Assembly: GCA_002841685.1 (NCBI GenBank)
Contig: PHAM01000008.1
Location: 1-39,228 of the forward strand
Direction of reading: 5' to 3'
DNA: 39,228 bases
From: Elusimicrobia bacterium HGW-Elusimicrobia-2
GTDB taxonomy: Bacteria; CG03
The translations under genes and the position numbers were made by a program. Shown piece by piece: positions 2,961 through 13,137 of the stretch. The notes under the pieces are model-generated. The model saw only the letters and a program-made list of their open reading frames with translations, did no database searches and was not told where the DNA came from. Every line of letters begins with the position of its first letter. Positions within the stretch are counted from its first letter, which is position 1.

Positions 2961-3479
2961 ATGAAAAAAATCAAAAAGCTGAAAGTCCGCCGTGGCGGGA
3001 AAGAGCAGGCCCCTGCGAAGCGCTCCGTCTGCCGTGGCGGATCCGCCTCTGGCGGAAAAAAGAAATCAGCGGTTGTAAAAAAGGAGACTGTTAAAAAGCT
3101 GAAAGTCCGCCGTGGCGGGATCAAACAGCCGTCCGCCAAAGAAAAGGCGCTGAGGCACAAGCATCTTGCCGTAATAGTGTCGCAGCTGAAAGAGGAAAAA
3201 CTGTTCGTGCAGGAGCGTGTCGAGAAAGCCAAGCGGGACGAGTGGATAGGCTCGGTCAATGATGAGATAGACAATGCTGTGGCCTCCACCGAAAGGGACA
3301 TACTTTTTGAAAGGGTGGACAGGCTCATCCAGCGGCTGGACGAAATTGATAACGCTCTGAAAAAAGCGCAGCTTAAAAACTTCGGCATTTGTGAAACGTG
3401 CGGTATGGCAATATCGCTCAAAAGACTCAAACTGATTCCTTACGCGCGCTTCTGCTACAGGTGCATATCAAAAGACTGA
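2961..3479 (+). CDS. DksA/TraR-family zinc-finger transcription factor with repeat-rich N-terminus
   Basis: DksA proteins bind the RNA polymerase secondary channel and help ppGpp tune ribosomal promoters. Residues about 65-140 form the coiled coil, whose tip carries D101-x-x-D104-x-A106, matching the DxxDxA motif essential in E. coli DksA. The C4 zinc finger is C144/C147 with C165/C168. The first 60 residues are unusual: a Lys/Arg/Gly-rich segment encoded by two identical 28-base repeats plus further palindromes, with KKLKVRRGG appearing twice. At 172 residues it is somewhat longer than usual DksA. The start ATG has AGGAG at 2950-2954. The 3' end overlaps the next gene if that gene uses GTG 3461. 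Confidence 0.85.
   Translation: MKKIKKLKVRRGGKEQAPAKRSVCRGGSASGGKKKSAVVKKETVKKLKVRRGGIKQPSAKEKALRHKHLAVIVSQLKEEKLFVQERVEKAKRDEWIGSVNDEIDNAVASTERDILFERVDRLIQRLDEIDNALKKAQLKNFGICETCGMAISLKRLKLIPYARFCYRCISKD
2973..3120. repeat. In-frame palindromic repeat cluster inside the dksA-like gene
   Basis: A 28-base unit at 2973-3000 recurs identically at 3093-3120. Each contains the inverted repeat TCCGCC-GT-GGCGGA preceded by CTGAAAG. Between them lie a degenerate copy (3024-3041) and another clean palindrome, TCCGCC-TCT-GGCGGA (3042-3056). All are in frame and translated. Related copies occur outside genes at 9097-9112 and 12273-12311. Confidence 0.85.
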
Positions 3480-4934: not shown

Positions 4935-6344
4935 ATGTTGACTTTGGTGAAATCCCGGCCTTGCCGGCCGGCCGGCGCTTGGGGCGTGAAAAAAATACTT
5001 GCGGTCTGCGCGTTGCTGCTGCTGAGCAATTTCCTTTCCGCTTTTCAGGAAGGTGAGAACATGCCTGATTTCGGTCTGCCCGCCTCGGACGGAAATTTTT
5101 ACATGCTGTCAGGTCTTCTGGAGAATGCTTCCGCGCTTGTATTTTCTTTCTTTGATTCCAACTGCGCCCCCTGCCGGAGAGAACTGCCGTCGCTCCTGGC
5201 GACGGAGAAAAAGTATGCCGCTGATAAAGGCGTGAGATTTTTTATGGTTTCTGTCGGGGAAGACAGGGAGACGGTCAAAAAATGTATAAAGGAATGGGGG
5301 ATCACCCAGCCTGTGCTCTATGATGAATCGGCGGATCTGGCGAAACAGTGCGGTGTCGTGGCAGGCTCTTTTAAGAACATCCCCCGCACATTTGTCGCGG
5401 ATAGAAACGGCAGGGTGACAAAAATATTCAAGGGTTATCAGGAAGGCCTGGTGAAAGCGATGTCAACGGAAATAGATAAAGCATCTTCGGCGTCAACCGG
5501 CACGGTGAAAACGATAAGGATACTTTACACGAACAGCGCCAACGGCATTATAGAAGCCTGTGACTGCCCGACCAATCCCTATGGGGGGCTGGTGCGGAGG
5601 CTGACTTTTTTTCAAAAGATAGCCGCTTCCGATATTAAGATTTCGGCGGGGGACTTTTTTTCTCCCAATGACGAACAGGTAAAAAACAGCTATGTGGCCG
5701 GGATAATGGCCAAGCTGGATTATGACGCCGTGTGCGTGGGCGATCAGGAGTTCCGTGCGGGGGCAGATGCTTTTCAAAGTATTTTGTCAGAATATGAACT
5801 GCCCATTGTTAATGCCAATATGCAGCTCTGCGATGAAAAAAGCTGCTCGGTATTCGGCAAACACTACATAATAAAAGAAGTGAATGGCGTGAAAATAGGG
5901 ATAACGGGCGTTACTTCGGAATCCTGCTTTCTGTTTTATCCGCAAAAAATAAAAGAGCGCCTGAAGATCACAATTCCGCCGAGGGAAGCGCTCGCCGAAA
6001 TCGTCCCGGTAATGCGGAAAAAATGCGATTATGTTTTCGTGCTGGTGCACGCCGGAGAAAAAGAGGTGGAGGAGATAGCCGGCGCGGTTAAGGGGATAGA
6101 TATTATTTTTTCCGGGCACACCCAGACGCTGACCTGTAAGAAAGGCAAGCCGCTCATCGTGCAGGCGGGCGCCGCCGCCCGCTATGTGGGGGAGCTGACA
6201 ATGCGTCTTTCCGGAGGGAGCGCTGTTTATGAAAACAAATTTTTCCCTCTCACCGATGACGTAATCAAGGACGAATGGGGGCTTTCCATCAGCGAAAAAT
6301 ATTTAATAGAATATAAAAAGAGTTTAGGAAAGTTTAAGCAGTGA
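4935..6344 (+). CDS. Secreted TlpA-like thioredoxin fused to a UshA-type metallophosphatase domain
   Basis: Of 469 residues, about 18-37 form a signal peptide core and 40-180 a TlpA/AhpC-type thioredoxin domain with active site CAPC (77-80) and a cis-proline loop NIPRTF (148-153). From about 193 a 5'-nucleotidase-like metallophosphatase domain begins (RILYTNSANGIIEACDCP, SAGDFF, GDQEF, SGHTQ). The usual GNHE metal motif reads GDQE (269-272), so the His ligand is missing and catalysis may differ or be lost. The first 17 residues are encoded by a GC-rich palindromic stretch before VKKILAVCALLLL; GTG 4986 is an alternative start. AAAGGGGG precedes ATG 4935. Substrate unknown. Confidence 0.75.
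   Translation: MLTLVKSRPCRPAGAWGVKKILAVCALLLLSNFLSAFQEGENMPDFGLPASDGNFYMLSGLLENASALVFSFFDSNCAPCRRELPSLLATEKKYAADKGVRFFMVSVGEDRETVKKCIKEWGITQPVLYDESADLAKQCGVVAGSFKNIPRTFVADRNGRVTKIFKGYQEGLVKAMSTEIDKASSASTGTVKTIRILYTNSANGIIEACDCPTNPYGGLVRRLTFFQKIAASDIKISAGDFFSPNDEQVKNSYVAGIMAKLDYDAVCVGDQEFRAGADAFQSILSEYELPIVNANMQLCDEKSCSVFGKHYIIKEVNGVKIGITGVTSESCFLFYPQKIKERLKITIPPREALAEIVPVMRKKCDYVFVLVHAGEKEVEEIAGAVKGIDIIFSGHTQTLTCKKGKPLIVQAGAAARYVGELTMRLSGGSAVYENKFFPLTDDVIKDEWGLSISEKYLIEYKKSLGKFKQ
4955..4984. repeat. GC-rich palindromic element in the signal-peptide region of the thioredoxin fusion gene
   Basis: The stretch contains nested GCCGGC/GGCCGG palindromes (core about 4962-4977) placed between the ATG and the hydrophobic part of the signal peptide. 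It adds a polar, Pro/Arg-rich n-region that such proteins do not need. It resembles the small palindromic elements elsewhere in the window but is a different sequence. Confidence 0.5.
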
Positions 6345-9096: not shown

Positions 9097-9112
9097 CTGA
9101 AAGTCCGGCGCC
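9097..9112. repeat. Partial copy of the CTGAAAGTCCG repeat
   Basis: The gap between the convergent uvrC and queF genes (9075-9118) contains CTGAAAGTCCGGCGCC, sharing CTGAAAGTCCG with the repeats at 2979 and 12279. No convincing T-rich terminator is visible in this 44-base gap. Confidence 0.5.
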
Positions 9113-12245: not shown

Positions 12246-12274
12246 ATTGTAGTAACATTAGCTCGAAAAATCAA
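12246..12274 (-). promoter_or_regulatory. Promoter for the minus-strand operon, apparently leaderless
   Basis: On the minus strand TTGATT (12274-12269) and TACAAT (12251-12246) are separated by exactly 17 bases, a near-consensus sigma70 pair. The ATG at 12238 follows the -10 box by only 7 bases, so transcription would begin at or next to the start codon. No ribosome binding site is visible. Confidence 0.6.
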
Positions 12275-12311
12275 GAAGCTGAAAGTCCGCTGAAAGTCCG
12301 CCTGCGGCGGA
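12273..12311. repeat. Tandem CTGAAAGTCCGC repeat with palindrome abutting a ribosome binding site
   Basis: TGAAAGTCCGC occurs twice in tandem (12280-12290 and 12291-12301). The second copy continues into the palindrome TCCGCC-TGC-GGCGGA (12297-12311). AAGGAA (12311-12316), the ribosome binding site of the following gene, touches the hairpin. The element is shared with the repeats inside the dksA-like gene. Confidence 0.8.
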
Positions 12312-12324
12312 AGGAAATTTTAAA

Positions 12325-13137
12325 ATGGATAAAAAAGAAAATATAGAGGGTTTTGAGGAAGAGGCGCTGGAGATCCTTTCGGATGACGATTCGCCCGAGA
12401 AAAAGCTTCTGGGTCCGGAGCTGGACGCCATAGCGAGGGAAGAGAAATTCTTTTCCCACATAATACATTATCTCACTGGCCTGCGCACGGAAGAGGAAGA
12501 GGCCAGGGCGCTCTGGAGCGCCATACTGGATCACAAATACCTGATGAGCGAAAAACTCGCCAGGAATGTGGGATTTCGCGTAGCCGCGCTGGATTATTTC
12601 CTTAATATAGACAGGCGGCTGAAAAGAGTCAATTTTGTCGAGATCAACAAAATGAAAAAGATCTGGTTTGAGGCCTCGTATGATTCGCTGACGCGGGTTT
12701 TCAGAAAAAATGTGATGGACTACTGGTTTAGCCGTATGAAGGAAGAAGCGGCCGCGAAAAAACTTGCGGTCATTTTTTTTGATGTGGACGGATTCAAGAA
12801 ATACAATGACAGGCTGGGCCATCTTGCCGGCGACGCGGCGCTCTATGAGATCGCCAGGGTCATGCGAAAATTTTCGGAAAAGGTATTCAGGTTCGGCGGC
12901 GACGAGTTTGTGATCATGGTTCAGATGGGCCTTGCCAACGCGAGGGAACTGGCGGCGAAAATCACAAAAAAGATACGCGCTTCCACCCAGGCTCTTGAAA
13001 AAGCGGAAAGCTCAATAGGCATATCTTTCGGCGCGGCCGTTTATCCGGATGACGGCGCTTCTCTGAAAGAACTGCTCAATGCCGCGGACAAGAGGCTTTA
13101 TAAGAAAAAAAGCGAGCGTAAAAAAGACGCTAAATAA
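12325..13137 (+). CDS. GGDEF-domain diguanylate cyclase
   Basis: A soluble 270-residue protein with a helical, acidic N-terminal region (1-115) of unknown type and a C-terminal GGDEF domain. FFDVDGFKKYND (151-162) supplies the metal-binding aspartate, and RFGGDEF (189-195) is the intact catalytic loop, so cyclic di-GMP synthesis is expected. I see no RxxD inhibitory site just before the loop. There is no membrane segment or sensory domain I recognise. The stop overlaps the next start as TAATG, coupling it to a receiver-domain protein. Confidence 0.9.
   Translation: MDKKENIEGFEEEALEILSDDDSPEKKLLGPELDAIAREEKFFSHIIHYLTGLRTEEEEARALWSAILDHKYLMSEKLARNVGFRVAALDYFLNIDRRLKRVNFVEINKMKKIWFEASYDSLTRVFRKNVMDYWFSRMKEEAAAKKLAVIFFDVDGFKKYNDRLGHLAGDAALYEIARVMRKFSEKVFRFGGDEFVIMVQMGLANARELAAKITKKIRASTQALEKAESSIGISFGAAVYPDDGASLKELLNAADKRLYKKKSERKKDAK

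Follow-up and report, generated by a model that had tools for sequence, protein, structure and literature searches.

Rickettsia palindromic elements (RPEs) are inserted in frame into Rickettsia genes; they are about 150 bp long, encode a conserved peptide and are predicted to be compatible with protein folding (PMC10969869). The GTAG/CGTC REPs are palindromic repeats of 20-40 bp that at times lie inside genes, and RPE-4 and RPE-6 have been assigned to the CGTC repeats (PMC3733652); Elusimicrobia go unmentioned in the main text of that paper. TnpA-REP enzymes need a GTAG tetranucleotide tag and cleave at CT (PMC8266576).

The 21-bp element described here resembles RPE-1 to RPE-8 and the similar elements of Wolbachia in being palindromic, dispersed and carried in frame by unrelated housekeeping genes. 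RPEs measure about 100-150 bp and have a conserved peptide, however, whereas the Elusimicrobiota unit is 21 bp long and is read in five frames. Likened by description, the element may rightly be said to work like an RPE, and this much of the original prediction, which had noted the resemblance, stands, namely frame-preserving insertion into protein genes; membership in the RPE family is not supported (21 bp against about 150 bp, and another phylum), and common descent is unlikely because the element is restricted to one genus. With REPs and REPINs it shares a small palindromic repeat that is sometimes genic and the presence of Y1 transposase genes in the genomes that bear it, but it lacks the GTAG/CGTC tag, is mostly intragenic, occurs in tens rather than hundreds of copies, and flanks no RAYT. 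Unlike MITEs, it has neither terminal inverted repeats nor a consistent target-site duplication, and its palindrome is confined to the right half. The cyanobacterial small dispersed repeats (SDR), reportedly described by Elhai et al. in 2008 and cited in PMC3116915 and PMC2884548, are said to be about 20-27 bp long, dispersed, hairpin-forming and thought to be mobile. By description, the 21-bp element fits them in size, dispersal and mobility, although its isolated hairpin is weak and both lineage and sequence are different; its main feature is frame-neutral insertion in core protein genes with empty sites in a sister species. The mode is RPE-like, but RPE length, REP tag and RAYT association all failed, and the element is therefore neither RPE nor REP by definition; it is an intragenic palindromic mini-element, a kind already known.

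The window, the whole stretch of 39,228 nt that was analysed, lies in contig C45 of G000, a 1.78-Mb metagenome assembly. G000 to G003 are four genomes of one uncultured Elusimicrobiota genus, with G003 the sister species of G000, and these element-bearing MAGs are 90-97% complete. The features of the window are as follows.

2961 to 3479, forward strand: gene for a DksA-like protein of 172 aa (PF01258, E=5.8e-9, residues 140-168), with orthologs in six family members
2978 to 2998, forward strand: 21-bp element copy 1, in frame (K-LKVRRG-G), an exact copy of the genus-wide element
3017 to 3056, forward strand: older composite palindromic insertion GAAGCGCTCCGTCTGCCGTGGCGGATCCGCCTCTGGCGGA, in frame (RSVCRGGSASGG), common to G003 and absent from G002, G001 and other relatives
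3098 to 3118, forward strand: 21-bp element copy 2, in frame, with a clean empty site in G003
12279 to 12311, forward strand: intergenic partial plus full element (CTGAAAGTCCG-CTGAAAGTCCGCCTGCGGCGGA), just upstream of a GGDEF-like ORF at 12325, net 33 bp shorter in G003

The DksA-like protein consists of a disordered basic tail (about residues 1-58), a coiled coil with a DEIDNA (DxxDxA) tip and a C4 zinc finger. Tip and zinc finger are intact, which places the protein in the DksA/TraR family, and D101, D104 and A106 are invariant across seven orthologs. The AlphaFold model has a pLDDT <50 for nearly all of residues 1-53, followed by helices at 59-96 and 108-137. The original prediction had described two identical 28-base copies and two more palindromes within this gene. 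Identical stretches are indeed present at 2973-3000 and 3093-3120, both translated in frame, but the mobile exact core is the 21-mer listed above; the two further palindromes, TCTGCCGTGGCGGA and TCCGCCTCTGGCGGA, were likewise found and make up the single composite at 3017-3056. The proposal that palindromes build the first 55 residues went too far, as palindromes account for only about 27 of the roughly 60 residues in the tail; the remainder is a Lys-rich tail that is free of palindromes in relatives. Beyond the gene, an intergenic copy had been placed at 12273-12311; it is real, but spans 12279-12311, and a supposed partial copy at 9097-9112 proved to be only CTGAAAGTCCGGCGCC, with no hairpin, and was not counted.

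Comparison of the locus with relatives places the insertions within the history of the tail. Distant orthologs have a Lys-rich tail of ~40-75 residues with no palindromes, and the peptides KLKVRRGG and RSVCRGGSASGG are not found in the more distant relatives. G003 has the composite and neither 21-bp copy. At copy 2 it is empty (GTTAAAAA^GATCAAAC), the difference being exactly 21 bp or 7 codons, and at copy 1 the element is also absent (ATCAAAAA^GAAAAAGCC), with a nearby 30-nt length difference that leaves this site not clean. Across the family, protein-level conservation of the N-terminal extension goes no further than its being a low-complexity tail rich in Lys, and the copy-2 KLKVRRG is missing in the sister species. 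The likely order of events starts from a conserved basic low-complexity tail, which received the composite in the ancestor of G000 and G003; the two 21-bp copies were inserted later, in the G000 lineage.

The palindromic unit GCTGAAAGTCCGCCGTGGCGG has a conserved block of 21 nt, with loop variants of 22-24 bp; it begins with a conserved 5′ head, GCTGAAAGT in the consensus of 55 copies, and the palindrome spans the right half only. Across the 55 aligned copies, information content falls past position 20, with the following purine partly conserved. Genome copy counts are from pattern searches: with ≤1 mismatch and either C or G accepted at the variable position, the unit occurs 23, 19, 8 and 22 times in G000, G001, G002 and G003, respectively, and 0 times in 12 other Elusimicrobiota under the same pattern and limit, while the reversed-pattern control gave 0 matches in all 16 genomes (≤1 mismatch). 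Related patterns behave alike in G000, with 15 matches to CTGAAAGTCCGCC (reversed control, 1) and 43 to GCTGAAAGTCCGCCNNGGCG at ≤3 mismatches (reversed control, 2). Within the window, GTCCGCCNNGGCGG at ≤2 mismatches matches 22 times against 3.8 expected, and no shuffle attains 22. The repeats are thus not limited to the dksA-like locus, as a purely local feature would have been; the 21-bp unit is dispersed in the four genomes, confined to this genus in the set of genomes searched, and variable in presence between sister species. Pattern matches in loci L121 (at 3569, ABC transporter), L132, L133 and L135 were set aside as chance, being ordinary coding sequence or lacking the element structure. 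Viral carriage was rejected as well; the six exact 20-mer matches in IMG/VR have unrelated, GC-rich phage surroundings and lack the remainder of the element, and are taken as chance.

Stem pair 9/20 is C-G in 28 copies, G-C in 5 and G-T in 11, a compensatory change that is consistent with hairpin constraint, though the copies are kin. The single-unit hairpin is weak (-3.6 kcal/mol as DNA) and not above shuffles, and its stability, not being significant, was dropped as evidence; the complete dksA composite folds better than shuffles, with z about -2.

Mobility is visible in the comparison of filled and empty sites. The flanks of 35 copies were taken, and the orthologous DNA in G003, G002 and G001 was located and aligned, yielding nine clean empty sites with inserts of 21 bp (seven sites), 69 bp and 48 bp, to which pheT is added as a less clean case.

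dksA copy 2: 21 bp, empty in G003
ribF start region (C57): 21 bp, empty in G003
C72: 21 bp, empty in G003
Intergenic copy in C47: 21 bp, empty in G003
Small ORF at C85: 21 bp, empty in G001
sufD: 21 bp, empty in G003
DDE transposase: 21 bp, empty in G001 and G002
Gfo/Idh oxidoreductase, triple insert: 69 bp (24+24+21), empty in G003, G002 and G001
C73: 48 bp, empty in G003
pheT, less clean with diverged flanks: 24 bp, empty in G002 and G001, filled in G003

The left flanks at the nine cleanest sites are TTAAAAA, AGCGGAA, GAACGAA, GGACGAA, ATATGAA, ATCAAGA, TTCCGAA, AATGGAA and GGAAAAA, with A at -1 in 9/9, A at -2 in 8/9 and a purine at -3 in 9/9. The inserts therefore lie directly 3′ of R-A-A, once of RGA; over all copies, left flanks are less uniform, and gcg, gcc and others are also seen. 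No consistent target duplication was found at the clean empty sites, where the ambiguity is 0-3 bp only. Where a G000 copy had an aligned G003 ortholog, G003 carries the element in about 9 cases and lacks it in about 15, and element activity is therefore recent. The polarity of the change, insertion and not precise loss, is firm only for Gfo/Idh, the DDE transposase and pheT, at which several relatives are empty. Length differences within genes are multiples of three, and the sole clean non-multiple (23 bp, in C51) is intergenic. The sufD site, filled by one copy in G000 and empty in G003, holds in G001 a separate and different pair of related palindromes (L191), making this a possible insertion hotspot.

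Copies occur in intergenic DNA as well as in conserved protein genes, and about 23 of the 38 credible G000 copies are inside conserved ORFs, in both orientations. The host genes, identified by Pfam or orthologs, encode in G000 the DksA-like protein (two copies), glycerate kinase, PheT, IF-2, RimM, SufD, Memo, endonuclease V, the Gfo/Idh oxidoreductase (three copies), Ldh_2, a response regulator, a DDE transposase, TonB-dependent receptor (two copies), two O-antigen-ligase-like proteins, a FlgD_ig-containing secreted protein, a Glucodextran_C protein, a signal-peptide protein and a membrane protein; in G001, a copy lies in a DnaA-like protein just ahead of the AAA+ domain. The frames of the 23 genic copies were checked: in the sense direction, offset 0 (AESPPWR) is used 9 times, offset 1 (KLKVRRG) 6 times and offset 2, which begins with TGA, 0 times, and the antisense frames give RHGGLSA 6 times, PPRRTFS once and ATADFQ once. 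All five stop-free frames are used and the TGA frame is not; zero of 23 in one of six frames has a probability of about 0.015 if frames are assumed random and independent. The glycerate kinase insert corresponds to a 12-residue gap relative to the solved structure 3cwc. The insertion sites look tolerant, comprising disordered tails (dksA, IF-2 and the endonuclease V C-terminus), the linker before the AAA+ domain in the DnaA-like protein, and the glycerate kinase gap.

Related modules with other heads have the same TCCGCC...GGCGGA hairpin as the 21-bp element. The GAAGCGCTYCGTCYGCC module, which is the head module of the dksA composite, is present in 7, 6, 2 and 4 copies in G000, G001, G002 and G003, and in 0 copies in three other Elusimicrobiota searched. 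A sister family, GAAATGTTKCATCCGC, places a different head on the hairpin, with 12 matches in G000 against 0 for the reversed control. In G004, a member of the same family but another genus, 28 TCCGCC(N1-6)GGCGGA palindromes occur in 0.7 Mb without the GCTGAAAGT head, and the hairpin part is therefore older or wider than the 21-bp element. Over positions 4935-5030 of the window, the ORF at 4935-6344, next after the dksA-like gene, begins MLTLVKSRPCRPAGAWGVKK and apparently reads a different palindrome (GCCGGCCGGC-type) ahead of its signal peptide; this may be a further palindromic family within a coding N-terminus. Two unrelated genes, for the Ldh_2 dehydrogenase (L028, G000:C36) and the response regulator (L029, G000:C53), both start MLNKAESAPWRAKSACGGK; this common start stems from a shared composite of roughly 60 bp in which the ATG itself lies.

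Very probably, these sequences represent a family of very small mobile palindromic DNA elements amplifying in one Elusimicrobiota genus, whose genic copies survive when they preserve the frame, add no stop and lie at tolerant sites. The preferred target and the constant length both speak for a specific copying process, and we infer that copies are put in by one that is trans-acting and target-selective. It would perhaps work on a single-stranded hairpin, through a Y1/HUH RAYT-type transposase, or by template switching primed at GAA/GAAAG microhomology. Genic insertions would then persist only if they change the length by a net multiple of three, add no stop and fall at a structurally tolerant site; in dksA, KLKVRRGG may persist since the tail stays basic. 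More tentatively, the repeats may form a class of their own, comprising mobile elements of roughly 21 bp that select R-A-A^ targets, are unrelated to REP/RAYT and are moved by another mechanism. Such elements would be near-harmless in coding DNA, because their length is a multiple of three and only one frame of six bears a stop, and could so spread through essential genes.

As to the machinery, it is possible, though doubtful, that a REP-type repeat is moved by a resident RAYT (Y1/HUH) through ssDNA hairpin processing and insertion 3′ of a short target, as in IS200/IS605 and TnpA-REP. The small palindrome, the conserved 5′ head, the CT dinucleotide at the 5′ end and the one-sided RAA^ preference would suit such an enzyme, which does not need target duplication, and Y1 (IS200-like) genes are found in all four genomes. 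However, the element carries no GTAG or CGTC tag, Y1 loci L121, L122, L123, L125, L126, L127 and L128 have no element beside the Y1 gene, no Y1 ortholog is common to the four element-bearing MAGs (90-97% complete), and Y1 genes are present in element-free Elusimicrobiota too. For the operonic Y1-DnaA_C gene of G000, G001 and G003, none of the Y1 genes found in G002 is an ortholog, and G002 does carry copies of the element. Linkage was rejected, as the nearest Y1 gene (G000:C27) lies about 1.7-2.7 kb from element copies and is operonic, with no flanking repeat. The gene at 5219-6181 of L121 (G000:C27) encodes a RAYT-like Y1 transposase fused to a DnaA-type helix-turn-helix; it is a single copy in one conserved operon of G000, G001 and G003, with 96% identity to G003 and 75% to G001, and is probably domesticated.

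The main alternative, itself rather unlikely, is enzyme-free spread by replication template switching or microhomology-mediated copying between copies, with GAA/GAAAG at the left border. The A-rich left border matches the internal GAAAG of the element, and tandem 24-bp units (Gfo/Idh), partial plus full copies (12279-12311), nested copies and composite mosaics are what such copying could leave behind, but the insert measures exactly 21 bp at seven sites unrelated to one another and its right border is fixed, a regularity beyond what template switching would be expected to give. That the basic KLKVRRGG was amplified as a selected peptide module for nucleic-acid binding by the DksA-like tail is very improbable: the dksA inserts are indeed basic and every relative has a Lys-rich tail, yet unrelated proteins read the same DNA in five frames and both orientations into unrelated peptides (AESPPWR, RHGGLSA, ATADFQ, PPRRTFS), the element is also intergenic, and the sister species lacks both 21-bp tail copies. 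A local coding repeat or chance, with duplication within dksA only, would account for two identical copies in a single gene but is refuted by the genome-wide counts, since copies are found by the dozen outside dksA and the reversed control yields about zero, and its likelihood is negligible.

The 21-bp element is probably selfish and close to neutral, and not a conserved peptide module. With it, the in-frame invasion of proteins by palindromes is extended to a new phylum and a far smaller unit, and the empty sites in the sister species display the inserts at base resolution. For the genus itself, the copies amount to a natural experiment in the entry of new segments of 7-23 residues into essential proteins, among them IF-2, PheT, RimM, SufD, a DnaA-like protein and DksA.
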